Positions 1,297-17,000 of a DNA stretch of 17,000 nucleotides are shown one piece after another. The DNA is taken from NCBI GenBank assembly GCA_029933125.1, contig JAOZOU010000023.1, positions 1 through 17,000 of the forward strand, given 5' to 3'. Position 1 is the first letter of the stretch; each line of letters opens with the position of its first letter. Under the pieces are notes generated by a model, which made no database searches, was not told the DNA's origin, and saw only the letters and a program-made list of their open reading frames with translations. The translations under genes and the position numbers were made by a program. The stretch comes from a bacterium. GTDB lineage: Bacteria; Arandabacterota; Arandabacteria; Arandabacterales; Arandabacteraceae.

Positions 1297-1355
1297 GTCT
1301 AACGTGGAAGCTCAGCGGCGCGGTTTACCGCGTTCGCTGGAGCGCTTTGTTGGGC
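1297..1355 (-). other. attC: attC (59-base element) integron recombination site
   Basis: Exactly 59 bp. Plus-strand ends are GTCTAAC (1297-1303) and GTTGGGC (1349-1355), fitting RYYYAAC and GTTRRRY. Inside, GCTC-AGCG pairs with CGCTGGAGC with one extra base on one strand, and CGCGG-TTTA-CCGCG forms the central hairpin, so the single strand folds into the bulged stem that integron integrases recognise. Read on the minus strand it has the usual look (GCCCAACAAAGCGCT ... CACGTTAGAC), placing the minus-strand DUF1287 gene as its cassette gene. The gene's last nine codons and stop lie inside the site. Known biology: attC sites are cut between G and TTRRRY by IntI. Confidence 0.75.
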
Positions 1356-2053
1356 TGTCTTTCTTCCTCCACTTCTTGGAAATATCGGAAATGGCCTGTG
1401 ATCTCGAACATGAACAACACATCCTCGAGTTGCGTTCCTGCTCCGATATTGTGCACGACCTTGTAACGATCTCCACCCTTCACAGGAACGTTTGATACAA
1501 TCCCAATGTGAGGAACCCCATTGGGAAGACGCCACACAACTATATCGCCGGGTAGGTAGCCTCTCCCGTCGTTTGTTATCGGGACCGCCTTGCCCTTCCC
1601 CCGAAGAAACGTTGCGATATTCAGCGCACGGCGATGATCTATGTTACTGTCTGGCCGGTTCAATCCCCAGAGGTTAGGATAGCTCTCAAAATTCGCCTTC
1701 ATATCTTCCTGGATCTCAATTTGGAGATCAACTCCACATTTTCGAAGCGCTCGAATCACTACATCCGTGCATACTCCACGTTCGATAGGCACATCACCTC
1801 CAGGATATGAAAGTTCGATGTACGATGGGTCATAGATCGTCGTTTTTCCCACCTGTTCCATCGCAGCAACTGCAAGCAACTCAGCCTTCGACCTCGGCTT
1901 GCCGTCCAACGGTCGACCGGCCACCGCGCACTTGATTTCCTTGCTACCCACTAACGTCTGAGACGCGTCGCTCTCCCCGGCTTGCTCCTCGTTACACCCC
2001 ACGAGAAGTACCAGCATGAAAGTGAAAATTGTGGTAAAGCAACGTGCATTCAT
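1325..2053 (-). CDS. DUF1287 family lipoprotein (NlpC/P60-like fold), integron cassette gene
   Basis: 242 residues from the ATG at 2053. This start is preferred over an in-frame ATG nine codons upstream because AAGGAA (2061-2067) sits about 8 bases before it and it begins directly with a signal peptide. A hydrophobic stretch (FTTIFTFMLVLLVGC) ends in a lipobox with Cys20, so the product should be a lipid-anchored envelope protein. The mature part shows the DUF1287 hallmarks: IYDPSYIELSYPGGDVP, RGVCTDVVIRA (Cys about 95), EDMKANFESYPNLWGL, DHRRALN, PGDIVVWRLPNGVPHIGIV (His about 182) and VHNIGAGTQLEDVLF (His about 201). These Cys/His positions suggest a cysteine-peptidase-like active site, though the family's substrate is not established to my knowledge. 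The tail PNKALQRTR is attC-encoded and not part of the family domain. Likely dependent on an upstream cassette promoter. Confidence 0.85.
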   Translation of the reverse strand: MNARCFTTIFTFMLVLLVGCNEEQAGESDASQTLVGSKEIKCAVAGRPLDGKPRSKAELLAVAAMEQVGKTTIYDPSYIELSYPGGDVPIERGVCTDVVIRALRKCGVDLQIEIQEDMKANFESYPNLWGLNRPDSNIDHRRALNIATFLRGKGKAVPITNDGRGYLPGDIVVWRLPNGVPHIGIVSNVPVKGGDRYKVVHNIGAGTQLEDVLFMFEITGHFRYFQEVEEERQPNKALQRTR

Positions 2054-2090
2054 AGCGTAATTTCCTTGTTTCATCTCCATTCGGCTTGAC

Positions 2091-2156
2091 GACCAAGTTC
2101 ACCTATCGCTATGGAGCGCCAGCTGAATAGCCATCGGATGGAGGGCTTTGTTGACC
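2091..2156 (-). other. Degenerate attC-like site upstream of the DUF1287 cassette
   Basis: 66 bp between GACCAAG (2091-2097) and GTTGACC (2150-2156), each one or two bases off the attC core consensus. Arms CCTATCGCTAT (2102-2112) and ATAGCCATCGG pair at 9 of 11 positions around an AGCGCC/AGCTG centre. The right end shares GCTTTGTTG exactly with the intact attC at 1297-1355 and matches it at about 15 of 21 positions. It lies 38 bp upstream of the DUF1287 start and about 30 bp past the stop of the preceding scrap, which is where a cassette boundary should be. Mutated core bases suggest it no longer recombines well. Confidence 0.5.
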
Positions 2157-2185
2157 AGCCAGTTTTCCCGTTCTTTCCTTACTTA

Positions 2186-2330
2186 TCAATTCCTACTCAG
2201 GAGTTCAAGTAAGATTTGAGCGGCTTTCTTGTCTCCATCAATTGGAATCGGTTTTGAAGCAACCTCTTTGCCAATATTGTCCAGGACGAACGAACCGCCC
2301 CTTGAACAGGCAGCCTTAGGTCCCCATCGG
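2186..2330 (-). pseudogene. Small truncated coding scrap between two attC-like sites
   Basis: A minus-strand frame ends at 2186 with a protein-like sequence of about 35 residues (FVLDNIGKEVASKP, then DGDKKAAQILLELLSRN). The frame stays open upstream, but there it overlaps the Trp-tail gene in another frame and the residues become Arg/Gly-rich and unprotein-like. No start codon with a ribosome site precedes the good part. I read this as the 3' remnant of a cassette gene lost by deletion. Product unknown. Confidence 0.3.
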
Positions 2331-2332
2331 CA

Positions 2333-2375
2333 GGCTAACGGTCCGCGTGAGCGGCGACGCTGACGCTTGTCACTT
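2333..2375 (-). other. Possible short, degenerate attC-like hairpin
   Basis: GGCTAAC (2333-2339) stands one base from RYYYAAC. AACGGTCCGCGTG (2337-2349) pairs imperfectly (9 of 13) with GACGCTGACGCTT (2356-2368) around a 6-base loop. It begins right at the stop codon of the Trp-tail gene (2370), where a cassette's attC would lie. At about 43 bp it is shorter than normal attC sites and its far core box is poor, so it may be coincidental or a relic. Confidence 0.3.
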
Positions 2376-2714
2376 CCAAAATTCCCACCATTTCCGCGAA
2401 GTCTTCCGATCTGACTGATCTGACGACCGAGATTCCTGCTCACGGATTCGCGGCAGTTCTCGGGCAATCTGGCCAAACACCTCAATACCCTTCTCCCAAA
2501 CTTCACGATACGTTTGACGAAGTGACTCTGTCCCTTGGAGTGTCATCTTGGCCATTTCCCATTGCTGGCGTATCTCGCCTTCAGGTACTGGGTTTCCAGC
2601 CAAATGAATTGCATGTCTGAAGTTCTCATACGTCAGTTCTGAAATACTGTTCAGATATGCAAGAGCACGCTTGTAGTTGTCGGCAAGTTCTCTAGCTCTA
2701 TCAACGTTATCCAT
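2370..2714 (-). CDS. Small helical protein with Trp-rich basic tail, function unknown
   Basis: 114 residues; the ATG follows GGAGGGG at good spacing. I do not recognise the family. Residues 1-85 look all-helical with regular charged and hydrophobic spacing (DRARELADNYKRALAYLNSI; YREVWEKGIEVFGQIARELP). They are followed by a polar linker (REQESRSSDQSDRKTS) and an abrupt aromatic-basic end, RKWWEFWK. Such a tail could seat in a membrane interface or a partner groove. It is the third gene of a tight minus-strand set with the zinc-ribbon and HEAT genes (20 bp after the HEAT stop), so it probably acts with them. The HEAT protein also ends in a Trp/Arg-rich stretch (NRVLNWFRRMR), which suggests a shared docking mode. 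No enzyme motif is visible. Confidence 0.65.
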   Translation of the reverse strand: MDNVDRARELADNYKRALAYLNSISELTYENFRHAIHLAGNPVPEGEIRQQWEMAKMTLQGTESLRQTYREVWEKGIEVFGQIARELPRIREQESRSSDQSDRKTSRKWWEFWK

Positions 2715-2734
2715 AATGCGTCCCCTCCGATGGT

Positions 2735-3577
2735 TTATCTCATGCGTCGGAACCAGTTAAGTACTCTATTCCAAACAGAACCTGGCGGTCTTCCTAGCAC
2801 TTTGGAGAGCAATCTCCTCTTCGATTTCAGAGTTTTCATGGTGGTACGGACTGCTTGGTTGGCTCTTTTCCACTCAGTCTGCTCTGCTGGATGAGAACCT
2901 CCCTTCTCTTGTAGGGCAGACAGAAGGCGCTGCTCAATAGCGGGCAGTACGTTCAAGGTGTTCTCTGTGGCAGGCAGTCTTGTAATTAGTTCAGACAGCG
3001 CCTTAGCGGCACATTCTCGCAAGTGAGGACTGGGATAATCGTGAGGGCAAACTAGTAGCTCTGCAATTGGAGCAATGGCACTCTCATCTCCGAACTTAGC
3101 CAATGCGTTCATTATTTCGGCATGTACCCATAACCCTAACCTCTGAAACTCAAAATCTATCTCTTGTGTGATCTCGTCGATCACATTGGCTAGGTGGCGT
3201 TCTTCCGGGCTCAGCCGTCCATAGGATGTTTCGTCTGCCGTGGGTCGTTCGTACATTATTGTGCCGGTTGACAGTCCGTAGCCGTATCGAGCCGCTTTGA
3301 CGAGGCCAGCGAGGTCAGAGAGGCGCTTGAGGGCCAAGGCAAGTGTTGGAATGGCTTGCTTGTCGCCAATCGCCCCTAAAGCTCTCGCTGCGGCACCAAC
3401 AACCATAACATCATCGTCGTCCAGCATACGAAGGAGAGGTTGCACCGCAGCTTCAACACGGCGTTCGCCGAGAGAAATGGCGTTGCCAGCCCTGATCCTA
3501 GGATTCGGATCATTGAGACGATCAATCATCTGGGATATGTCCTCGTCTGACGCGCGGGACTGTTGGTGTTCGTTCAT
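2735..3577 (-). CDS. HEAT-repeat protein
   Basis: 280 residues. Two clear HEAT/PBS-lyase-type repeats lie at about 12-84 (LNDPNPRIRAGNAISLGE; LLRMLDDDDVMVVGAAARAL; GDKQAIPTLALALK). Another pair falls at about 150-200 (HAEIMNALAKFGDESAIAPI; HLRECAAKALSELITRLP). They are separated by a non-repeat insert (about 90-148). The end (246-280) is strongly basic and finishes NRVLNWFRRMR. HEAT solenoids are binding scaffolds, so this is likely the protein-protein platform of the three-gene set rather than an enzyme. The ribosome site is weak (TTAGGT about 6 bases before the ATG). The start is 39 bp after the zinc-ribbon stop, with no attC between, so the genes share a transcript. Confidence 0.8.
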   Translation of the reverse strand: MNEHQQSRASDEDISQMIDRLNDPNPRIRAGNAISLGERRVEAAVQPLLRMLDDDDVMVVGAAARALGAIGDKQAIPTLALALKRLSDLAGLVKAARYGYGLSTGTIMYERPTADETSYGRLSPEERHLANVIDEITQEIDFEFQRLGLWVHAEIMNALAKFGDESAIAPIAELLVCPHDYPSPHLRECAAKALSELITRLPATENTLNVLPAIEQRLLSALQEKGGSHPAEQTEWKRANQAVRTTMKTLKSKRRLLSKVLGRPPGSVWNRVLNWFRRMR

Positions 3578-3616
3578 CGATGACCTAAGTTCTTTTTGCT
3601 CGTCCTTGTTGCTTCC

Positions 3617-3883
3617 TCAGTCTTGGGTCGTGAAGAAGTAGGGACCACCCTCCTTCTTGCAGTTGGGGCAGGTTGGAATGCCCACAGAACCTACTTGGGA
3701 GGATGCGCACGAGAAACAAATGATATAGCCGCAATCCTGACACTTAAGCGCTATGTTCTCGCGCTTCATTGATGCCATCGAATCGGGGCCGAGCAGAGCT
3801 ATCTTGCCAGGGTCGAAGACGCGCACCTTGGCTTGTCTCCCGCAACTTTCGCACTTCACGTAGTCGCCGTCACGAACGTTCAC
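3617..3883 (-). CDS. Small four-CxxC zinc-ribbon protein
   Basis: 88 residues, starting at GTG with GGGGAGGAG 5 bases upstream. Four CxxC pairs occur: CESC (11-14), CQDC (48-51), CFSC (56-59) and CPNC (72-75), enough for two structural zinc sites. The sequence between the first and second pair (PGKIALLGPDSMASMKREN) has no catalytic signature. The closing part (CGYIICFSCAS...IPTCPNCKKEGGPYFFT) resembles zinc-ribbon modules that bind nucleic acid or protein. It is the first minus-strand gene next to the divergent promoter region facing the integrase relic, so it would be the integron's first cassette position. It probably forms an operon with the HEAT and Trp-tail genes. Specific function unknown. 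Confidence 0.75.
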   Translation of the reverse strand: MNVRDGDYVKCESCGRQAKVRVFDPGKIALLGPDSMASMKRENIALKCQDCGYIICFSCASSQVGSVGIPTCPNCKKEGGPYFFTTQD

Positions 3884-3915
3884 TTTACTCCTCCCCTTCT
3901 AGTTTGTGGCGCCAT

Positions 3916-3944
3916 TTGACACCGAACTTGCTATTCTACACAAT
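3916..3944 (+). promoter_or_regulatory. Putative sigma-70 promoter toward the integrase relic
   Basis: A perfect -35 box TTGACA (3916-3921), a 17-base spacer and CACAAT (3939-3944, 4 of 6 to consensus). It points right toward the integrase fragment and overlaps the divergent minus-strand promoter, as integrase promoters do in integrons. Confidence 0.4.
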
Positions 3945-3963
3945 CTCCGTTACTGTGAGTCAA
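3933..3963 (-). promoter_or_regulatory. Putative sigma-70 promoter for the zinc-ribbon operon (cassette-promoter position)
   Basis: Reading the minus strand: TTGACT (3963-3958), a 19-base spacer and TAGAAT (3938-3933). The boxes are good and the spacing is long. The predicted transcript would start about 43 bases before the GTG of the zinc-ribbon gene. Confidence 0.4.
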
Positions 3964-4032
3964 CTCATCAGCGGCTTTGCAGCCAGAATATCACGCGAGT
4001 GCGCACTTGGCAAGACAAAATGCAGGAAATGC

Positions 4033-4062
4033 GGGGAAATGGGGGAATAGGTGGGGAATGGG
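4033..4062 (+). other. G-quadruplex motif and inverted repeat upstream of integrase relic
   Basis: Four G runs (4033-4036, 4041-4045, 4053-4056, 4060-4062) with loops of 4, 7 and 3 bases fit the standard G-quadruplex pattern on the plus strand. An inverted repeat starts directly after or overlapping it: GGTTGGT (4061-4067) with ACTAACC (4084-4090). The latter resembles core-site boxes (GTTGGTT / GACTAAC, each one base off), so the attI site could have lain here. Confidence 0.4.
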
Positions 4063-4106
4063 TTGGTTGGAATCGCCGTAGCGACTAACCAGACCACTCA
4101 ACATGG

Positions 4107-4412
4107 GTGTTGTGGAGATTGTATCTAATGAAAAGACTGGATATGAGCGGAGATGACGATAAGCTGCAGGCCCTACTGGAAGGTTATCCCAACTTCCTGC
4201 GGGTAAGGAAGCTGGCCCCGCCCAAACCTCAACCCCACTTAGTACGCTGGGTGCGCGTGTTCCTGCTCTTTGCCAGCGAGCAAAGCGGTTAGAGCTTCGA
4301 GCAGACGCTGGGTTAGTTCCTGACCACACTCGGTCGATGTGCCGGCAGCAAGTCCTGGCGGATTCACCGGGCATCACGCGCCATTCGCATTTACCGGTAT
4401 CAGTATTGCGCC
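4107..4412 (+). pseudogene. Tyrosine recombinase (integron-integrase-like), N-terminal relic
   Basis: From the ATG at 4128 the frame reads LQALLEGYPNFLRVRKLAPP, LVRWVRVFLLFASEQSG, TAG (4290-4292), SFEQTLG, TAG (4314-4316), FLTTLGRCAGSKSWRIHRA and AIRIYRYQY. This pattern of a helical SAM-like core-binding domain (yPxFLRxR..P, WVrxFL.Fa, sFEqtL..FL..l, ..WqI.qA..AIRiY) is what I know from the N-terminus of integron-type integrases. The catalytic domain with its R-H-R-Y residues is absent; HsdS sequence follows in the same frame. TAG ends intact genes elsewhere in the window, so these stops inactivate. Position and orientation relative to the attC-like sites on the left fit a divergent intI. Confidence 0.55.
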
Positions 4413-5168
4413 ACCCGTGGCAGGAGGGAGGACAGAAGGGCGTCGGCGCTTCTGGCAATAACGGAAGGCGAGGCGAAGCGCCTGCGCGAGGAGGCTCGCC
4501 AGGAGGTCGACCGCCTCTGGCAATCCGTCCTCGCCGAAACCTTCCCCCGCCCCGGCTCCGACCTCCCCGAAGGCTGGCGCTGGGTTCGATTGGGTGACGT
4601 ATTCGAGCTTCAGCAAGGTGCCTCTATGTCGCCCAAGAGACGCCTTGGTCGCAACCCAAAGCCTTTTTTACGGACAAGGAACATTCTCTGGGGCCAACTG
4701 GACACGTCAGCAATGGATGAGATGGATTTCACGGAGGAGGAAATAGAAAAGCTTCGCTTGCAGCCGGGTGACCTTTTGGTATGCGAAGGGGGAGATGTGG
4801 GCAGGACTGCCGTCTGGGAAGGGAACCTTCCACTGGTTCTCTACCAGAACCACATCCATCGGCTTCGTGCTAAACAGGATTCTGTTGAACCGCGGTTTTT
4901 CATGTACTGGATGCAGGCTGCATACCAGGTGTTCCTCACGTATCAAGGCGCTGAGAGCAGGACAGCAATCCCAAACTTGTCAGGGCGTCGCTTAAAAGAA
5001 TTTCTCGCTCCCCTCCCCCCACTCCCCGAGCAGCGGCAGATCGTGGCGTGTCTGGAGGCGGTGCGGGAACGGGTGCAGGCGCTCAAAGAAGCCCAGGAAG
5101 AGACCGAGGCCCGCCTCAAAGAGCTGGAACGTTCCATCCTGGATAAAGCATTCCGAGGCGAGTTGTGA
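4413..5168 (+). pseudogene. hsdS: Type I restriction specificity subunit HsdS, C-terminal half
   Basis: Similarity begins about 4455 within the first coiled-coil spacer (AKRLREEARQEVDRLWQSV), then enters the second target-recognition domain (LPEGWRWVRLGDVFELQQG ... LQPGDLLVCEGGDVGRTAVW ... LYQNHIHRLRA). It ends with the conserved PPLPEQRQIVACLEAVRERV region, a second coiled coil and ILDKAFRGEL. A full HsdS has two such halves (about 400 residues) that contact a bipartite DNA site with HsdM and HsdR. Here the first half is missing, replaced by the integrase relic in the same open frame. The only near starts are weak (TTG 4590, ATG 4626) and lack a ribosome site. No hsdM or hsdR is present. A half-HsdS can sometimes dimerise, but a remnant is likelier. 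Confidence 0.8.
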
Positions 5169-6046: not shown

Positions 6047-6391
6047 AGTCGTGGCCTCCTGCCTGTCCAAAATCAAGTCAACGGGGAGCTTGTGGATCTT
6101 CGTCGAGCGCCTCACCCGGACGCCAAGGTCGAAGCGCTCCTGGACTGGATCTACCATCTCGAGGGCGGGGAGGGCGACCCGGATCTCAAGGTGCTGGTGT
6201 TCACTGAGTTCGTGCCGACCCAGGAAATGCCGCAGGAGTTCCTGACTGAGCGCGGCCTCAAGGTGGTATGCCTCAACAGCTCCATGGACATGGAGCAGCG
6301 GAACCGGGTCGAGTACGCAATCGTCGGGGATGCCCGCACCCTAATCTCAACGGATGCCATAGGTGTGGGGTTCAATGAGTGCTTTACCTAG
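6047..6391 (+). pseudogene. SNF2-type helicase fragment (second RecA domain, truncated)
   Basis: The open frame starts directly after the DUF3800 stop (NGELVDLRRAPHPDAKVEAL). It covers the start of the helicase C-terminal RecA lobe: KVLVFTEFVPTQEMPQEFL (motif IV), LKVVCLNSSMDMEQRNRVE and ARTLISTDAIGVGFN (motif V, normally STDAGGEGLNLQ). Both Gly-Gly-Glu bases of motif V are altered, and the reading ends two residues later. Motif VI and the whole first lobe are missing, so it cannot be active. SNF2 helicases of this kind occur in defence systems including DISARM; the fragment is too short to say which. Confidence 0.7.
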
Positions 6392-6633: not shown

Positions 6634-6715
6634 GCCTAACACAGGCTTTTCGGCTCACTTCGTTCGCCCGAATTCCGCCTGCGGCGAAACTTGGTATACG
6701 CCAGAAACGTTGGGC
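6634..6715. repeat. 82-bp hairpin-rich element with attC-type ends
   Basis: It starts GCCTAAC (6634-6640) and ends GTTGGGC (6709-6715), matching RYYYAAC and GTTRRRY. With one flanking base each side, CGCCTAAC and GTTGGGCG pair over 8 bp with one G-T wobble. The interior holds smaller inverted repeats (TTCGG / CCGAA and GGCG / CGCC). The next gene starts 25 bp beyond with its own ribosome site, as a gene cassette would. The interior pairs less continuously than a textbook attC, so it may be a related dispersed repeat. Orientation is ambiguous. Confidence 0.45.
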
Positions 6716-6740: not shown

Positions 6741-7649
6741 ATGTCAATCATAATTGATGGAGAACGAGGGAAAAAGGTGGCGGAACTCGTCTATAAAGCC
6801 TTCTCTACTAACGGTATTCATGGAAGGACGGATATGCCTGAAGACATAGTGCCCAATGGTGTAGCAAGAGGCTCTCTTGATCATATATTCTTTATAACCC
6901 TCACGGTTTCTATTGACTATCAACGAGATGCCCCATCGTTATGGGCGAGTTCAAGAAAAACATTTGACGATCCAGAAACAAGATACTTATTTGATCCAAA
7001 ACTACTCCATGAAACTCCTCGTGAGAAGATAATTGAAGACATGCAAAAGTATGGGTTATCTAAGAAACCTCGAAAAGATGCTTATATCTGGCGAACGGTT
7101 GGTGTTACTTTCTATAAGAAATGGGGAGGAGACCCACGCAACTTTCTCCAAAGTTGCAACTGGGATTCTCCAGTCATTTTGAGACGTCTAAGGGAAGACA
7201 CCCACCTCTATAACGGAAGAGCGATATCCGACTATCCATATCTTCGTGGTCCTAAAATAGGTCCGTTGTGGCTGAGAATGCTTCGAGACAACGTAGGTAT
7301 CACCGAATTGAAAAATTTGGACAAAGTACCTATCCCCGTAGATGTACATGTAGCAAGAGCAACATTAGCTACTGGGATTGTTAGAGGGCGGTTCAGGGGT
7401 AGATTAGATGAAGTGTTTGAATACATACGAAAGGCCTGGTTTGAGAGTGTAAAAGGACTTAGCATTAGGGACAGAGAGATGATAGCGTTGGACGTGGATG
7501 AGCCTCTTTGGCATCTTTCTAAATACGGTTGTACAAAGCGAGATAAGACGACTGGCTACTGTCCACTTTACCACAGATGTGAAGCAAGAGAGTTCTGTGT
7601 TGGGGGAATGGTTAGAATAGAAGGTACCGTTGTGGAGTTGGACACATGA
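6741..7649 (+). CDS. HhH-GPD (endonuclease III-like) protein with C-terminal Fe-S cysteine cluster
   Basis: 302 residues; AGGAGGG lies 9 bases before the ATG. The centre carries a helix-hairpin-helix-like LRGPKIGPLWLRML (168-181, Lys172) followed by KVPIPVDVHVARAT (195-208, Asp201). These align with the GxGxKTA...xxVDTHVxR signature of the endonuclease III/MutY superfamily, whose Asp (and Lys in bifunctional members) drives base excision. The C-terminus has four cysteines (264, 274, 280, 286) in place of the usual 4Fe-4S loop. The spacing is C-x9-C-x5-C-x5-C rather than C-x6-C-x2-C-x5-C. The first 120 residues are unlike standard EndoIII. It sits alone between an attC-like element and a repeat region, so it may be a mobile DNA-glycosylase with a defence or modified-base role. 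That role is inference. Confidence 0.65.
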   Translation: MSIIIDGERGKKVAELVYKAFSTNGIHGRTDMPEDIVPNGVARGSLDHIFFITLTVSIDYQRDAPSLWASSRKTFDDPETRYLFDPKLLHETPREKIIEDMQKYGLSKKPRKDAYIWRTVGVTFYKKWGGDPRNFLQSCNWDSPVILRRLREDTHLYNGRAISDYPYLRGPKIGPLWLRMLRDNVGITELKNLDKVPIPVDVHVARATLATGIVRGRFRGRLDEVFEYIRKAWFESVKGLSIRDREMIALDVDEPLWHLSKYGCTKRDKTTGYCPLYHRCEAREFCVGGMVRIEGTVVELDT

Positions 7650-8375
7650 GAGCATTCGTCCAAGTTCGCCTTCGGGAAACCTGAGATACGCTTGTAACGT
7701 GATACTGAAATACTAAAAGAAGTGGCATCTTCACAAGTACCCAAAGGGTTGCGAGCCCTCAAACTTTCACCTTTAAGATGAAGAAAAATAGCAAGGAGAG
7801 ATGAAATTACTTTCCTTCGCTAGCAAGAGCCTTTCTATCTCTTACCTTCTTCCGTCGCTCATGAACATCATCTTTTCCAGATCTCCATTGATTCGCAATT
7901 TCCACGGTAAGGAACGATATGAAACAGATCCGAACGCTAGATATGTCAGAATTGAATTCAGAATTGAATTCCACGTCACAAATTGGGATTAGCAGCAGTG
8001 AGGTTATTAGAGACTTGGCGAATGCTAGCGCGTGATCTGGCGAGGTGGTTTCTGAGGATACGTGAGAGATAGTTAAGTTACGTGCGCCAGGGAGCCGATT
8101 CAAGTATTTTGGAGGCAAAAAACAGATTGAAGGGCGAAGGTCCATCAGGGTGGAAACTACATTGGGTGTGAAAATTGATCGTAGGCTGAAATGCACTAGA
8201 GGCGGCATTCGGAACTTCTGAAACAGCAGGGATATCGTCTTGTTTCAGAGACCTGGGTTTCACCTCGAGAGTGATTGTGGTGAGATCATCCTGTGTGAGA
8301 GACCGCGCCTTCGCATAGGGACTTACTTTAGCTTCTTTAGATGTGATAGACGGTGTTGGCACCTTGAAGGTGTTT
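7650..8375. other. Gene-poor region before the tandem repeat
   Basis: No confident gene. AGGGTT-gcg-AGCCCT (about 7745-7759) could be a short hairpin. A 12-bp unit CAGAATTGAATT is repeated twice in tandem at 7947-7970. A minus frame at 7807-8208 ends in a basic stretch (RSGKDDVHERRKKVRDRK) that looks protein-like, but its first half is not, and it overlaps the heptad-encoding minus frame in a different phase. I read the region as decayed sequence. Confidence 0.35.
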
Positions 8376-8587
8376 AGCTCATGGACGAACAGGGCTGGCT
8401 CAAGGGAGAGCATATCTGGCTCAGGGACGAGCCTCTCCGGGGTTTTCGATGCACGTGTCTGGCTCATGGGCGAATGTGTCTGGCTCATCGTACGAACATG
8501 TCTCGCTCATCGGAGAGCATGTCTGGCTTACGGACGAACATGTCAGCGTTATCGAGGAAGATGTCTGGCTCATCGAGGGAGGCTCGT
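8078..8587 (-). pseudogene. Frameshifted minus-strand frame encoding heptapeptide repeats
   Basis: Reading the minus strand across the 21-bp repeats gives a run of seven-residue units: DIFLDNA, DMFVRKP, DMLSDER, DMFVR (frame lost), DTFAHEP, DTCIENP (frame lost), DMLSLEP, ALFVHEL. It then continues about 95 residues with no repeat (TFKVPTPSITSKEAKV, SLTQDDLTTITLEVKPRSL, SLKQDDIPAVSEV). Two 22-bp units cause the frameshifts. Only the part up to 8488 has an ATG, and no ribosome site is convincing. No family recognised. It could be a broken repeat protein, or purely a DNA minisatellite read by chance. Confidence 0.35.
8376..8587. repeat. Ten-unit 21-bp tandem repeat
   Basis: Units begin near 8376, 8397, 8418, 8439, 8461, 8482, 8504, 8525, 8546 and 8567, eight of 21 bp and two of 22 bp (8439-8460, 8482-8503). 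Each is built on GGCTCATCG followed by GACGAACATGTCT, with several substitutions per unit. There are no spacers. Because 21 is a multiple of three, frames on both strands stay open across parts of the block. Confidence 0.85.
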
Positions 8588-10629: not shown

Positions 10630-11808
10630 TTAGTTGCTTCCCAGAATGGGCTCAAGCCAAGTTCTGAACTCTTCGTTTGTCTTTAGAAAATCTCCCAGTG
10701 ACCACTTGCGCGGCTTCCCCCGCCTCACCTGGTAGAGTTTCCCTTTGAAAAGGCTTAGCTGTGGCTCCTTGTCGTGCCACTTGGGGAAGCATGTGATTCT
10801 GGGGTTTTGATTATGAGGATCCAATCTACTTCTGACGCTGTCGTGGTCGGGATCAACAATAGCAACGCGCAGTGCTGTATTCTGACTCATTGCATCCGCA
10901 ACTACTTGGGTGACACTATTGTCTCTGAGACTGCATCCTACTATGACGAGTGCCCCTAGGTCATGAGAATGAAGGGTGCGTCTGAAGTCTTCAATCGCTG
11001 CCCTTGCGGGACCTGGCGGATTTTGTTTCTGATCATCCTTAAATATCAGGAACGGTTCACAGTGGACATTTGCAAACAGCTTCTTCCTCTTTGCACCAGA
11101 TCGGAGAGGGATTCTGAAATACTTCCTTCCGTCACCATTGTTACCATCTGCCCTATGCCACGAAATCGAACCGTGGAGCTTGCGCAGATGAACCTCAAGT
11201 GGGGGGTTCATCCTGTGACTATTGTGACCGTCCAGCCAGACAGGACCAAAACCGTCATCGCAGGGAATATTTACAGCATAGCAAAGACACTCCACCACAA
11301 GGTCGTAGTTAAGGCTAAACACCTTGAGAATCGCTCGGCCTGCCTCATTCCTTGCTGAAGCCCGGGCGGGAAGGTGTAACAAGGGCTCAAGGTATTTTAC
11401 GTCCCCAGGTGTTGCTTCCCTGAACTGAGCTCTCATTCGTTCGCCGATAAAGTCCCAGAACTTCTGAACCAGCCGGGGCTTTTTGGGAGACTTACTGCCA
11501 GAGGAACGCAGGACCAGCCCTTCCTGTATCTTCTCCATTAGCACCTCGATGTCAAAATTTCCATCGTTTTGCTTTTCCCAAGCCCTGAGGAGTTTCCTCA
11601 TTTCCTTAAGGTCATCGCGCTTCCAGCGCCCTTCGTGTTTAACTCTACGCTTCGAGCCGTCCTCTCGGTCGGCTATCATTCTATGGAGGCTCTTCTTTAT
11701 ACTTCCGACGAAGCCTTTGGCTGTTGGGATTCCTGCCTCACAGGATGCGCCGGCACCTAAGAGGAACGCCACTGGTAAGACTCTCTGAGATCTTTCGGTC
11801 TTCAGCAT
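10630..11808 (-). CDS. SIR2-domain protein, probable NAD+-consuming defence effector
   Basis: 392 residues; GGAGGG precedes the ATG by 8 bases. The Rossmann-type SIR2 core shows AFLLGAGASCEAGIPTA (14-30, NAD-binding GAGAS), VFSLNYDLVVE (163-173, the conserved Asn-Tyr-Asp), HLRKLHGSISW (207-217, catalytic-region His) and ALVIVGCSLRDNSVT (286-300). An Arg/Lys-rich segment (50-70) sits in a helical insert after the first strand. Prokaryotic SIR2 proteins of this kind, unlike deacetylase sirtuins, deplete NAD+ on phage infection (Thoeris ThsA, DSR and SIR2-Argonaute systems). No zinc-binding cysteines of a classical sirtuin are evident. It lies 209 bp downstream of brxL on the same strand with its own ribosome site, so it may be co-transcribed as a back-up abortive module. 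The sensor or partner is not identified. Confidence 0.8.
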   Translation of the reverse strand: MLKTERSQRVLPVAFLLGAGASCEAGIPTAKGFVGSIKKSLHRMIADREDGSKRRVKHEGRWKRDDLKEMRKLLRAWEKQNDGNFDIEVLMEKIQEGLVLRSSGSKSPKKPRLVQKFWDFIGERMRAQFREATPGDVKYLEPLLHLPARASARNEAGRAILKVFSLNYDLVVECLCYAVNIPCDDGFGPVWLDGHNSHRMNPPLEVHLRKLHGSISWHRADGNNGDGRKYFRIPLRSGAKRKKLFANVHCEPFLIFKDDQKQNPPGPARAAIEDFRRTLHSHDLGALVIVGCSLRDNSVTQVVADAMSQNTALRVAIVDPDHDSVRSRLDPHNQNPRITCFPKWHDKEPQLSLFKGKLYQVRRGKPRKWSLGDFLKTNEEFRTWLEPILGSN

Positions 11809-12017: not shown

Positions 12018-14045
12018 TTAGGTCATTCCCAAGGCTTTCATTGCCGCTGTCATGGGGTCGGAGTAGAAAATGGGGTCTACTCGTTCTATGATGTCGCCTG
12101 AAACTTCTAGAAAATTGCGCTTGTTTTCTAAAGGAATTAGTGCACGCTTAGCACCGTTGTCCATACTGACTTGAAGGGGCTCCACAAGGGAACGTAGCGA
12201 CTTGATATTACCTTGAATCGTAAGATCTCCCAGAATCACGAGACCAGGCAGGACTGAGTGTTTCTTGAGTGCCGAGTACACGGCAACGATGAGGGCTACC
12301 CCTGGCTCAATAGGTACATGGTTGCCGAGCAGATCGATCGCTTCTACGTGGAAGTCAGTGATATCTACATGCTGAGAAATACCCATCCTAGCTTTCTGCG
12401 CTCGTAAGTAGGCAAAGGCTCTCGTGATCGACTCCTTCATCGTTCCATCTATGCCTCCAGCAGTCCTCATTTTCCCACTGCCTGGAGAGCACCCGACTTC
12501 CAGCCGATACAGACCAGCCTTGCCCTGATCATCCACAGAAGCGGCATATACTGAGCCGGGAGCCAAGGGATCAGACGAGATCATGTCACGCCCACCCTGC
12601 TCTGGAACACCCACGAACCTTTCTTCTCGCGTTTCATTATCGATGTAAGAGAAGGATGTCTGGTGATACTCAAAGGAGCCGAGCTTCTTGAGCTGCTCTT
12701 TGACACGTCGTCTCCCCTCAAGGGCTAGTTCCAGTATCTCGGCAAGTTCTGCGCGGCTAAACTTACCATGAGGGTAGATGAGCTTGATGAATCCTGAAAC
12801 GGTCTTTCGGACAGCCTTAACGTCACGCGCATTCAGGTGGGATCCGAGGGAGAAATACCGATCTATGGAATCGCTGAAGTTGTGTTTTCGGAGCTCACGG
12901 AACGCCTCAGCAAGGTAATCGACAACAAACCCATAATGCTCAGTGAAATACTCGACCCGCATCTTGGGGATTTCCCAACCGGGCATATAGAAATGGAGGC
13001 GATCGAGAAACGCCAAATCTTCACGAATTACTTCCGGCATAGGCATGAAAAGGTGCGAGGAGCGTACCATTATTTCAACCGCCTGGTTGGTATTGCCGAA
13101 CATGGCTATCGAGGCCCTTCCGGTCAGCGCGTCTTTCCCCCTAGCGAAGGTTCCTGATTCGCAATATGTCTTGAGTGTTGTTACTACTTCCTTTTTCATC
13201 TTCTGGAGATCCGCAACCTCATCGAATGCAACGACATCCCAGGTTCCTACCAACCCCATCTTGCCGGTCGCCATGTTGTAAAAGAGATTCGCAACTGTCG
13301 TGGGACCAGTAAGCAGAATTGTATACGGTGAAAGTTCTTGATAGGCATAGCTTTTCCCGGTTCCACGGGGACCAAGCTCCACCAAATTGTAGTTCTCTTC
13401 ACATAGCGGGATCAGGCGCACCAGCAACAGCATCTTGCCCCTACGGCTGAAGTGCTGAGGCTCAAGCCCGATGGAACGAATCAGCAAGTCAATCCATTCG
13501 TCTGTAGAGAACTCTGAGCGACATTCTTGGAACTCATCAAGGTCGAAAGTAGCAATCTGAATCGGTTTTAGGCTATCAATCCAGAAAGGACTTCGTTTGC
13601 CCCGGGCATCTTGATCGTAGAGATGGTGAAGGTCAACCTGAGCCCAAATGCCACCCATAAGCAGGCGGTCATACTCACGCAGGTAGCGGTCTGGAATGTG
13701 GACATACTTATGTCCGAAGTTTAGCAGTTCAGCCCAGTACTTATCGTCCTCTGACAAATAGCGAACTTTCACTTTGTCGATAAAGGTATGTTTGCCTTTT
13801 TCTTTAACCATTGACTGAGCTTTATTCGATTCATCTGGTCTGACAAAATTGGTGCTGATCGTAGTGTTTACAACCCGGAGACCCGCCTCAATGGCATTAG
13901 GATCATCGGTAGCGCAGTACTTTCCAAGAAGATATTCGAGCACGAAGACTGGAATATTTGCTCCTACCTTCACCTTTCGCACGAGGTCCTTTCGGACCAC
14001 CTTGCCGGCAAACACTCTCGTGACTTTGCGATCCAGCTCGGACAT
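12018..14045 (-). CDS. brxL: BREX system AAA+/Lon-like protein BrxL
   Basis: 675 residues from the ATG at 14045 (GGCGGTGA just upstream, 16 bp after pglZ's stop); the in-frame ATG 13 codons earlier lies inside pglZ and lacks a site. The N-terminal domain starts MSELDRKVTRVFAGKVVRKD, typical for BrxL. The AAA+ core has Walker A GPRGTGKS (225-232), Walker B VVAFDEVAD (271-279), sensor FGNTNQ (316-321) and a DRLHFYMPGW arginine segment (348-357). The C-terminal Lon-like domain (about 500-675) reads DITDFHVE, EPGVALIVAVYSAL, GDLTIQGNIKSLRSLVEPLQ and ends FYSDPMTAAMKALGMT. The Lon Ser and Lys positions appear as Glu and Val, so proteolysis is unlikely. BrxL is a DNA-binding hexamer-forming restriction factor in BREX type 1 and 4. 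Confidence 0.93.
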   Translation of the reverse strand: MSELDRKVTRVFAGKVVRKDLVRKVKVGANIPVFVLEYLLGKYCATDDPNAIEAGLRVVNTTISTNFVRPDESNKAQSMVKEKGKHTFIDKVKVRYLSEDDKYWAELLNFGHKYVHIPDRYLREYDRLLMGGIWAQVDLHHLYDQDARGKRSPFWIDSLKPIQIATFDLDEFQECRSEFSTDEWIDLLIRSIGLEPQHFSRRGKMLLLVRLIPLCEENYNLVELGPRGTGKSYAYQELSPYTILLTGPTTVANLFYNMATGKMGLVGTWDVVAFDEVADLQKMKKEVVTTLKTYCESGTFARGKDALTGRASIAMFGNTNQAVEIMVRSSHLFMPMPEVIREDLAFLDRLHFYMPGWEIPKMRVEYFTEHYGFVVDYLAEAFRELRKHNFSDSIDRYFSLGSHLNARDVKAVRKTVSGFIKLIYPHGKFSRAELAEILELALEGRRRVKEQLKKLGSFEYHQTSFSYIDNETREERFVGVPEQGGRDMISSDPLAPGSVYAASVDDQGKAGLYRLEVGCSPGSGKMRTAGGIDGTMKESITRAFAYLRAQKARMGISQHVDITDFHVEAIDLLGNHVPIEPGVALIVAVYSALKKHSVLPGLVILGDLTIQGNIKSLRSLVEPLQVSMDNGAKRALIPLENKRNFLEVSGDIIERVDPIFYSDPMTAAMKALGMT

Positions 14046-14061
14046 TATTTGATCACCGCCT

Positions 14062-16677
14062 TTACATTGAGATGGCAACGTCAATCTTTTCTATTCTTGA
14101 CAGTTCAACCCCCGTTGCAGCGTCCAGCAAGTGCAAACTGACAGTTTTCTGGACAGGTTCCTCAGTTACCATAAGGGTGACTGTGTTTGGTGCTATTTGC
14201 TTGGTGTTAACCTCATCGTATCGCAATGTCACATCTCCTGTGGCTTCTTCGAAGCCATATGAGGCACTAACAGTGCGCGAGATTGTCTTGCCCCTCGCTC
14301 GGAGCTCAACCCGTACATGTGGCAGAGGAATATCAAACAGCTCATGAACCTCACCTGTAATTTGAACCGAGAAGAATCGGGTAGAAAGCTTCTGACTACC
14401 AGGTATTAGCTTCCACTCGATTGAACTGAGCTTAGCTGCCGGCGATTTTGCCAACGGCGTCAACACCATAACCGGGACAATTAGCTCTTGCGGCGAAAGG
14501 CCCCCATGGAAATAGGTCGTCGCACCGCCCTTGCATCTAAAGCAGGCCAAGGTCCACGGCGTCGCTATATCGAACTCGCTTTCCATACCAAGCGCTTTGA
14601 TGGGCATCCGGAATACGGCGTCATCTGCAGAGCCACCGTGACCCACCCAAGCCCGACGATGAAGGTCCACCGTTTGTCCTCCAGGAGCATCAATCTTCAT
14701 ATCCTCTGTTAACTCTTCAGCGAAAAGGTGACCATGGTCTGCGGCCAGGACGATGCGCTCAACACCCAAGTCGCTTAGGATTCGAATGCAACGCTTCAAG
14801 TCTTTCAGAATCCTATCCATTTGCCTCCTTGCCTGTGCCACATTGTCCGATTCACAAAGCTCGTCGATCTCTTGCGAAGTCACGAGGACAAGTTGTGCAC
14901 CCCTAATCCCTTCCCTAACCTTCTTGGATGGTTTAGGCAAGAGCTTGTCGAGCCTAGTATCGAAGACGCTGACATCTACATGCTCCTTTAGGAAAGCGAC
15001 ACGATCTCTGCGGTCCTTGATGACTTTCCCGTTGATCTCGAGTGCCAGTTTGTCACTGCCTGCGGACACAACCTTGGCCGAGGTGTGGGCATTGGGTAGG
15101 AGAGCTGCCATGCCTATCTCCGTGATGGTCGGCACTGCCGCAAGGGAAGCAAGCAAATCCACCTCAGAATATTCCATAAGTATCGGTGCCAGCTCCTTTG
15201 CCATTTCGAATCTGAGGGCATCTACCCAAATGTAGGCGATTTTTTCTTTGCCCAACCAGGGCCTTGCATGTTTCTCGAAGGTTTCGCGCTGGCGCAAGAT
15301 GGTCCCCTCAGGGGTGGTCTTTTGTAGCTGCCTAAGGAATTGTCTAGCAACCTCGGAGGCAACGTGCGTATAACGCTGTCTCGCCCTCATGATCAGCCTC
15401 TCTAGGCTGTCGTGGTCATCGCCGTCTGCTTCGAAGTCGTACCAGCGCTTTTCCATGTGACGATGATGGGTGTCGAGCATGCACCAAGGTTCGGGACCTT
15501 CTGTGTATTCTCTGATCATCTGGGAGACCGATGTCGGGGGCCTCTTCAGTGCCTGCTCCACTCGGTCAGCCTGGAGTAGCACTTGGGCGGCTGAGGCGAC
15601 CAACGCCCAGTGAGCCTGGAGCCTTCCATCCACATGACACCAGAAGCCGTCCATCCGTGATTCCGCAAGCCGGAGTACTTCGCTACTTGCGTCAGTCTGA
15701 GCTGCAGAGGTATTCGTCTCCTCAAGAAGACGGGTCTCAGCGTAGCGGAGCAACGCTCTTTCAATAGCGGCGAAAGTTTGGAGTTTTTCAATAGCCTTAG
15801 GGTCAAGGTCTAGGGTAGCCAAACCAAACTCTTGCTCAACACGTTCGGCAGCAGCGACGTAGCTTGGCTGCATTTCTCGGTGCGAGCGCCACTTATTCGC
15901 TAAGACCTTGCATGCCTCAGTGGTTGCCGGCGTGCGTGCGATCGGAACTGAAGCTAGTCGTGGCGGTTTGGCATCACCCAGGCAAGAGATGAGTTCGGTC
16001 ATGAGAACGTGGCGAGCAAAGAGCCGACGGAGATGAGTCACGTCTGTACCATTATGAGCATCAAAACCGAACTCCTGGCTCAGGAGCTCCAGAAGTTTGC
16101 CAGTTGCTTCCTTCTTCGTGATGCTTTCATCAAAGCGGCTGCTCGCGAGAAATGAGAGAGCGACTTCCTGGGAGTTGCCAGTACTGAAGATGAGGGCTAT
16201 TATGCCTCTTGATATTTCGCCGCCCTTGTCTGCCAGGGCGTCAAGGTCGGCCAAGGTGAGCTTTCCTGCTTCGGTCTGTTCGACAACCTCCGCAAGGTTT
16301 TCTTCGTTCAGAATGCCCTTGAGTGCATTCCTAGCTACCACCGACAGGCGAGTGTTTCGGGCAGGCGGCTGCTGTCCTGGTTGCATAACCACACCTGCCG
16401 CCTCGAGTTCGATGAGTGCGTGATGGGTTTTCTCCTGATGCATTGGGACATAGACCACGAGACGAGGCGGCTCCTCACCATCCATAAGTTTCCTCTGATC
16501 GATCTCCCAGCGTAGAAGGATGAAACTGCCCTGATAGCGGAGGACGGTGGTACCAGGCAGGTCCAAGGCCTCGACCGCCTCGGAATAGGCGCCATCCGGG
16601 TCGTACCACACAACAAGGCCATTGTCGTCGACCTGCTTTGCGATCAGATTACGAACGTGTTCCGAAACGATACTCAC
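14062..16677 (-). CDS. pglZ: BREX phosphatase-domain protein PglZ
   Basis: 871 residues, family-typical length. It starts at GTG 16677, three bases after the upstream stop, with AAGGAAA as ribosome site. The N-terminus (GLVVWYDPDGAYSEAVEAL) is characteristic of PglZ. The alkaline-phosphatase-like core runs from about 475 to 740: AYIWVDALRFEMAKELAP (Asp486), VPTITEIGMAALLP (Thr near 518 as possible nucleophile), VLAADHGHLF (Asp647, His648, His650) and TTYFHGGLSPQELIVPV (His724). A beta-rich C-terminal domain (about 760-871) follows. PglZ is a core component of all BREX and Pgl systems, where it works with the methyltransferase and ATPase to mark self DNA and block phage replication. Its phosphatase-type metal residues are conserved here. 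Confidence 0.93.
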   Translation of the reverse strand: MSIVSEHVRNLIAKQVDDNGLVVWYDPDGAYSEAVEALDLPGTTVLRYQGSFILLRWEIDQRKLMDGEEPPRLVVYVPMHQEKTHHALIELEAAGVVMQPGQQPPARNTRLSVVARNALKGILNEENLAEVVEQTEAGKLTLADLDALADKGGEISRGIIALIFSTGNSQEVALSFLASSRFDESITKKEATGKLLELLSQEFGFDAHNGTDVTHLRRLFARHVLMTELISCLGDAKPPRLASVPIARTPATTEACKVLANKWRSHREMQPSYVAAAERVEQEFGLATLDLDPKAIEKLQTFAAIERALLRYAETRLLEETNTSAAQTDASSEVLRLAESRMDGFWCHVDGRLQAHWALVASAAQVLLQADRVEQALKRPPTSVSQMIREYTEGPEPWCMLDTHHRHMEKRWYDFEADGDDHDSLERLIMRARQRYTHVASEVARQFLRQLQKTTPEGTILRQRETFEKHARPWLGKEKIAYIWVDALRFEMAKELAPILMEYSEVDLLASLAAVPTITEIGMAALLPNAHTSAKVVSAGSDKLALEINGKVIKDRRDRVAFLKEHVDVSVFDTRLDKLLPKPSKKVREGIRGAQLVLVTSQEIDELCESDNVAQARRQMDRILKDLKRCIRILSDLGVERIVLAADHGHLFAEELTEDMKIDAPGGQTVDLHRRAWVGHGGSADDAVFRMPIKALGMESEFDIATPWTLACFRCKGGATTYFHGGLSPQELIVPVMVLTPLAKSPAAKLSSIEWKLIPGSQKLSTRFFSVQITGEVHELFDIPLPHVRVELRARGKTISRTVSASYGFEEATGDVTLRYDEVNTKQIAPNTVTLMVTEEPVQKTVSLHLLDAATGVELSRIEKIDVAISM

Positions 16678-16680
16678 CGC

Positions 16681-17000
16681 TCAGTTTCCTTCGGCATTTG
16701 TTTCGGCGTTTGCTGGAAACATTTCTTGCAAGGCTGAGATAAATTCATCGAGCTGCAACTCGGGTCGATAATAATGGCTTTCCTGCAATCGGATAATGCC
16801 CGGACGGTCAAGGGCGGAAAAATACCTCGAGACCAGGCGCCCTGCCTTTATAACGTAGGGTTCGTCAGCATATTGATCGCGGAATTGGATAGCCTGATCC
16901 CATTCACTCTCCATCGTAGTCGCCAAGATGGCGTACATATCCAGAGCATGGTAACGGCCGAATTCCTTGTCGGCATCGTCGAGCCGGTCACTGAATGCGA
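16681..17000 (-). CDS. Gene upstream of pglZ, C-terminal 105 residues (partial)
   Basis: The frame is open to the window edge (AFSDRLDDADKEFGRYHALD at the edge), so the ATG at 16938 is only internal. The visible part is helical: DMYAILATTMESEWDQAI, VIKAGRLVSRYFSALDRPGI, YYRPELQLDEFISALQEMFP. It is translationally close-coupled to pglZ (stop 16681, pglZ GTG 16677), so it belongs to the same operon. The pattern A..dR...(x)GR.HALD.Y.I. recalls the tail of nucleotidyltransferase-like (AbiEii-type) proteins, but that is a weak recollection. It does not look like the end of PglX or BrxC as I remember them. Treat as an unassigned BREX-operon component. Confidence 0.6.
   Translation of the reverse strand, partial: AFSDRLDDADKEFGRYHALDMYAILATTMESEWDQAIQFRDQYADEPYVIKAGRLVSRYFSALDRPGIIRLQESHYYRPELQLDEFISALQEMFPANAETNAEGN

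Follow-up and report, generated by a model that had tools for sequence, protein, structure and literature searches.

Integrons are bacterial devices for capturing genes, and positions 1297-4412 of contig C104 raise the question of whether one once stood there and what has become of it. The contig in its entirety forms the window (the whole stretch of DNA that we analyzed, 17,000 bases long) and belongs to a 3.23 Mb metagenome-assembled genome from a sparsely sampled class. A sequence-only reading had described the locus as a decayed chromosomal integron comprising an integrase-like relic on the plus strand, attC-like sites at 1297, 2091, and perhaps 2333, and 4 genes on the minus strand as cassette cargo. 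We consider it highly probable that the stretch is indeed what remains of a sedentary integron, with an integrase that lacks its catalytic core. The features discussed below are the following:

1297-1355, minus strand: attC 1, canonical (covariance model 1: 55.0 bits, E = 2.9e-14 over the window; model 2: 51.4 bits)
1325-2080, minus strand: DUF1287 lipoprotein-like gene, cargo of cassette 2 (PF06940, E = 1.3e-62)
2084-2156, minus strand: attC 2, degenerate (model 1: 21.4 bits, E = 4e-4; model 2: 20.4 bits, E = 3e-3)
2370-2714, minus strand: protein of 114 aa ending in WWEFWK ("Trp tail"), probable third ORF of cassette 1 (ORF)
2735-3577, minus strand: HEAT-repeat protein of 280 aa, probable second ORF of cassette 1 (HEAT_2, E = 6.7e-19)
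3617-3883, minus strand: zinc-ribbon-like protein of 88 aa, first ORF after attI and probable cargo of cassette 1 (ORF; weak zinc-ribbon matches)
3925-3953, minus strand: attI (alignment with the region upstream of the L154 intI; conserved GTAACGGAGATTGTGTAGAATAGCAAGTT)
3985-4013, minus strand: candidate cassette promoter, TTGCCA-17-TATTCT with TG before the -10 element (consensus scan only)
4128-4412, plus strand: intI relic, the N-terminal extension of a long-form integron integrase (profile A2; identity to IntI)
4421-5168, plus strand: C-terminal half of the type I specificity subunit HsdS (reading frame; Methylase_S, E = 1.8e-13; PADLOC Specificity_I, E = 2.9e-45)

An integrase remnant without its catalytic core

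The reading frame of the relic is interrupted by 2 in-frame TAG stops (4290-4292 and 4314-4316), and its translation was searched with X at these positions. Across 98 genomes, this search returned 3 integron integrases (TIGR02249, 394-453 bits) and a single chance-like ORF, and the relic was found to match an extension of about 100-145 residues that lies ahead of the part covered by the IntI model. We built a profile of such N-terminal extensions with the relic left out (A2) and ran it over 290 genomes, where it matched the relic with E = 7.6e-10 as its sole match in the relic's own genome; 11 of the 12 other matches at E < 1e-7 fall on IntI cores, whole or broken, while the remaining one ends at a contig edge. 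The closest relative is the integrase of an integron in genome G262 (contig C501, L091/L154), which shares 49 of 89 residues (55%) with the relic as well as 73% of the nucleotides over 266 bp, and its extension continues into a canonical IntI core. The integrase-like relic of the earlier reading is thus an integron integrase and not another recombinase, with the other recombinases of the same genome failing to match it. A search of plasmids with the relic returned nothing.

The core itself is gone: TIGR02249 finds no IntI core on C104 and none over the cut-off in the rest of the genome, and what would make a complete integron in the IntegronFinder sense, a full IntI with catalytic core and the IntI-specific additional domain adjoining attC, is not present. 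Beyond position 4412, the frame of the relic runs on in frame into the HsdS fragment, which lacks its own usable start codon ahead of 4590. Neither this junction nor the attI site described below had been noticed in the sequence-only reading.

Long-form integrases have been encountered before, and Nemergut et al. 2008 (PMC2426708) describe the Deltaproteobacterial IntI of clade 15 as about 120 aa longer than others through a gene fusion common to the whole group. Their additional part resembles the extension of the relic, and the two domains are likely identical. The A2 profile also has weak matches to the ordinary SAM-like domain in the IntI of L031, L032, L033, L059, and L062, as if the extension were a second copy of that domain. 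In a relative from the same family as our genome (L064/L065, G003 C297), an IntI that scores over the cut-off lacks the N-terminal extension.

Recombination sites and cassette cargo

We searched for attC sites using 2 covariance models, after a box-and-bulge scanner of our own had been dropped as noisy (106 matches compared to 43 in shuffles). Model 1 covers 61 positions and was trained on 7 attC sites from elsewhere with the window excluded, comprising 3 relatives of the hairpin at 1297 and 4 other attC sites that include the aadA7 type present on thousands of plasmids; the broader model 2 comprises 41 sites with pairing backed by covariation. Both models recovered the 2 main sites proposed previously on the minus strand, with the one at 2091 turning out to be degenerate, while the possible site at 2333 matched neither and was rejected. 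The next best match of model 1 within the window has an E value of about 1, and across the whole genome (E ≤ 0.1) attC 1 and attC 2 are its only two matches. Searches of Rfam at gathering and relaxed thresholds returned nothing relevant.

The first site displays R''/R' and L''/L' boxes and one extrahelical base. It resembles the aadA7-type attC of class 1 integrons in having R and L boxes, an unpaired spacer, a single extrahelical base, and the same geometry, but the sequence and cargo are different and there is no resistance gene in the window. Relatives of the hairpin were found in 6 other contigs labelled as Planctomycetota, Gammaproteobacteria, Nitrococcus, Smithella, or Bordetella, whereas its 23-mer was absent from viral contigs. 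An integrase acting in trans may still be able to use attC 1. The second site has an E value of 0.08 at the scale of the genome and its R boxes pair poorly; it lies at the 3' end of cassette 1, directly upstream of the DUF1287 gene, and is probably a true site in decay. Both sites share the same orientation and point away from intI.

An attI site was recognized by comparison with the integron on C501, because the intergenic regions preceding the relic and the L154 intI have the motif GTAAYGGAGATT..GTGYAGAATARCAAGTT in common. The alignment scores 36, whereas none of 2000 shuffles exceeded 30 and the rest of the window reached no more than 24, and the 29-nt motif lies about 200 bp from the start of intI at both loci. 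Cassettes join attI at a GTT, and the homology with L154 stops exactly there, at the junction with the first cassette, which therefore starts at about 3925. The junction itself reads GTTCGGT and departs from GTTRRRY at one position. Between attI and the relic, a consensus scan of both strands (2 promoters found, 0.4 expected) points to a candidate promoter at 4013-3985 that might read into the cassettes.

As previously described, the genes on the minus strand run away from the relic. That the DUF1287 gene is cassette cargo is near certain: its ORF starts 4 bp after attC 2, its stop codon lies inside attC 1, and it fills the space between the 2 sites to form a compact ORF-attC cassette of which attC 1 is the 3' end. 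For the other 3 genes, the proposal that they are cargo holds in a weaker form. They are located between attI and the degenerate attC 2 and would therefore be the cargo of one first cassette of 1.84 kb, in which the gaps of 39 and 20 bp between ORFs leave no room for a further attC. None of these genes was found beside attC sites in other genomes. Relatives of DUF1287 and HEAT were found elsewhere, with the HEAT protein yielding generic HEAT matches only, and none of them adjoins an attC; the zinc-ribbon protein has no relatives in 280 genomes or on plasmids, and none were found for the Trp-tail protein in the same kinds of searches, plasmids included.

A wrecked integron and its alternatives

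An intI remnant, an adjoining attI, attC sites in the same orientation, and a compact cassette are all found at this locus, with the first cassette probably compact as well. Their orientation, order, and spacing agree with the proposed layout of a chromosomal integron and match intact integrons that we examined. At L031, L033, L083, and L154, intI and the attC sites likewise occupy opposite strands, with the attC sites leading away from intI. The integron on C501 additionally shares with the window a divergent first cassette with attC beyond it, next to its homologous attI. It differs in that its extension is followed by the IntI core (in an assembly with gaps; this integron may itself not be intact) and in the content of its cassettes.

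The main competing explanation is that the attC sites and the DUF1287 gene are a stray cassette fragment, i.e., a small CALIN, which came to lie near the relic by accident of island assembly, with the other 3 genes being ordinary genes of that island. The degenerate state of attC 2, the lack of any attC between the 3 genes, and the absence of relatives beside attC would all fit this explanation, as would a contig that is a mosaic of defence-gene fragments. Yet the relic and the zinc-ribbon gene are separated by an attI whose homology breaks off at GTT, and the strands and gene order agree with intact integrons, so that we regard such an accidental neighborhood as rather improbable. It is far harder to believe that the hairpins have nothing to do with integrons and belong to a dispersed palindromic repeat. 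The 23-mer does occur as single copies in scattered contigs of unrelated phyla, but the model built on the hairpins finds arrays beside intI in other genomes, the stems show the covariation and the extrahelical base of an attC, and the genome has no other copy; we view this explanation as very improbable. Even less credible, and largely refuted, is the idea that the relic stems from an unrelated tyrosine recombinase of the Xer or phage type and that the attC sites are the only integron parts. In its favor, Pfam and NCBIfam are silent on the relic alone and A2 weakly touches ordinary SAM-like domains, but the strong matches of the profile lie on IntI cores, the recombinases of the same genome do not match the relic, and its DNA is 73% identical to a true intI.

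Under the reading as a wrecked integron, intI would once have stood on the plus strand with attI about 200 bp upstream, where cassettes were captured that would be read on the minus strand and away from intI. A deletion or rearrangement would then have eliminated the entire catalytic portion of intI, leaving its first approximately 95 codons fused to the distal hsdS half, with the 2 stops breaking the remnant further. Such a platform could no longer catalyze its own recombination, and its 2 cassettes would be frozen in place.

Decayed integrons are a known and common kind, of which this locus is a new member. Nearly one third of intI genes are reported to be pseudogenes (PMC2426708), and CALIN have been proposed to be degraded integrons (PMC9024848). 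The window resembles these pseudo-integrons and CALIN in its broken intI or in having attC sites without a working integrase, but differs in that relic intI, attI, and attC are all kept in place and the remnant runs in frame into hsdS. Since our models place 2 attC sites 730 bp from each other, the locus would itself count as a CALIN, although attC 2 may fall below the threshold of IntegronFinder.

While the locus is one further entry in a long series of degraded integrons, it also illustrates that an integron can be recognized from a 95-codon intI remnant together with attI and attC where a standard integrase search yields nothing over the cut-off. The N-terminal extension could serve as a marker of broken integrons, since nearly all strong matches have it attached to an IntI core. 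More tentatively, and in our view unlikely, integrases with an extra N-terminal SAM-like domain might form a separate platform lineage over several phyla, with the attI motif described above as its own and with long multi-gene first cassettes, in which case the wreck would be a member from a little-known bacterial class.

Contig setting and neighboring elements

C104 is an outlier in tetranucleotide composition within its bin, correlating at 0.28-0.53 with 7 other contig stretches of the genome that correlate at 0.39-0.80 among themselves. The glutamine synthetase encoded in the middle of the contig, which is the only strong match of its kind in the bin, is 45-47% identical to those of its family, while the family members are 68% identical among themselves. 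Because of this composition and the divergent glutamine synthetase, C104 is a foreign island, or else it was binned wrongly. The resulting uncertainty about the host touches the owner of the integron and not its identity as an integron.

Besides hsdS, C104 carries a BrxHI-like helicase fragment (6092-6391, plus strand), a SIR2-like gene (10630-11808), and BREX genes in the right part of the contig (brxL and pglZ, 12018-16938, minus strand). A palindromic repeat, TCGCCTAACAC...GTTGGGCGA, at 6634-6715 (plus strand) is 77-80% identical to single copies in 3 unrelated genomes and has a covarying stem. As an attC it was rejected, with scores at background level in our models and a straight stem without extrahelical base in its relatives. 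Since a partial second copy is found at about 7654-7700 (plus strand; score 32 compared to at most 23 in 500 shuffles), directly 3' of the gene at 6741-7649, this gene is flanked by direct repeat copies in a cassette-like manner. It lies on the plus strand and encodes a protein of 302 aa that weakly matches the archaeal DNA glycosylase AGOG and has distant relatives on haloarchaeal plasmids. A degenerate 21-bp tandem repeat (8377-8576; 9.4 copies, 65% matches) lies between this AGOG-like gene and the glutamine synthetase.
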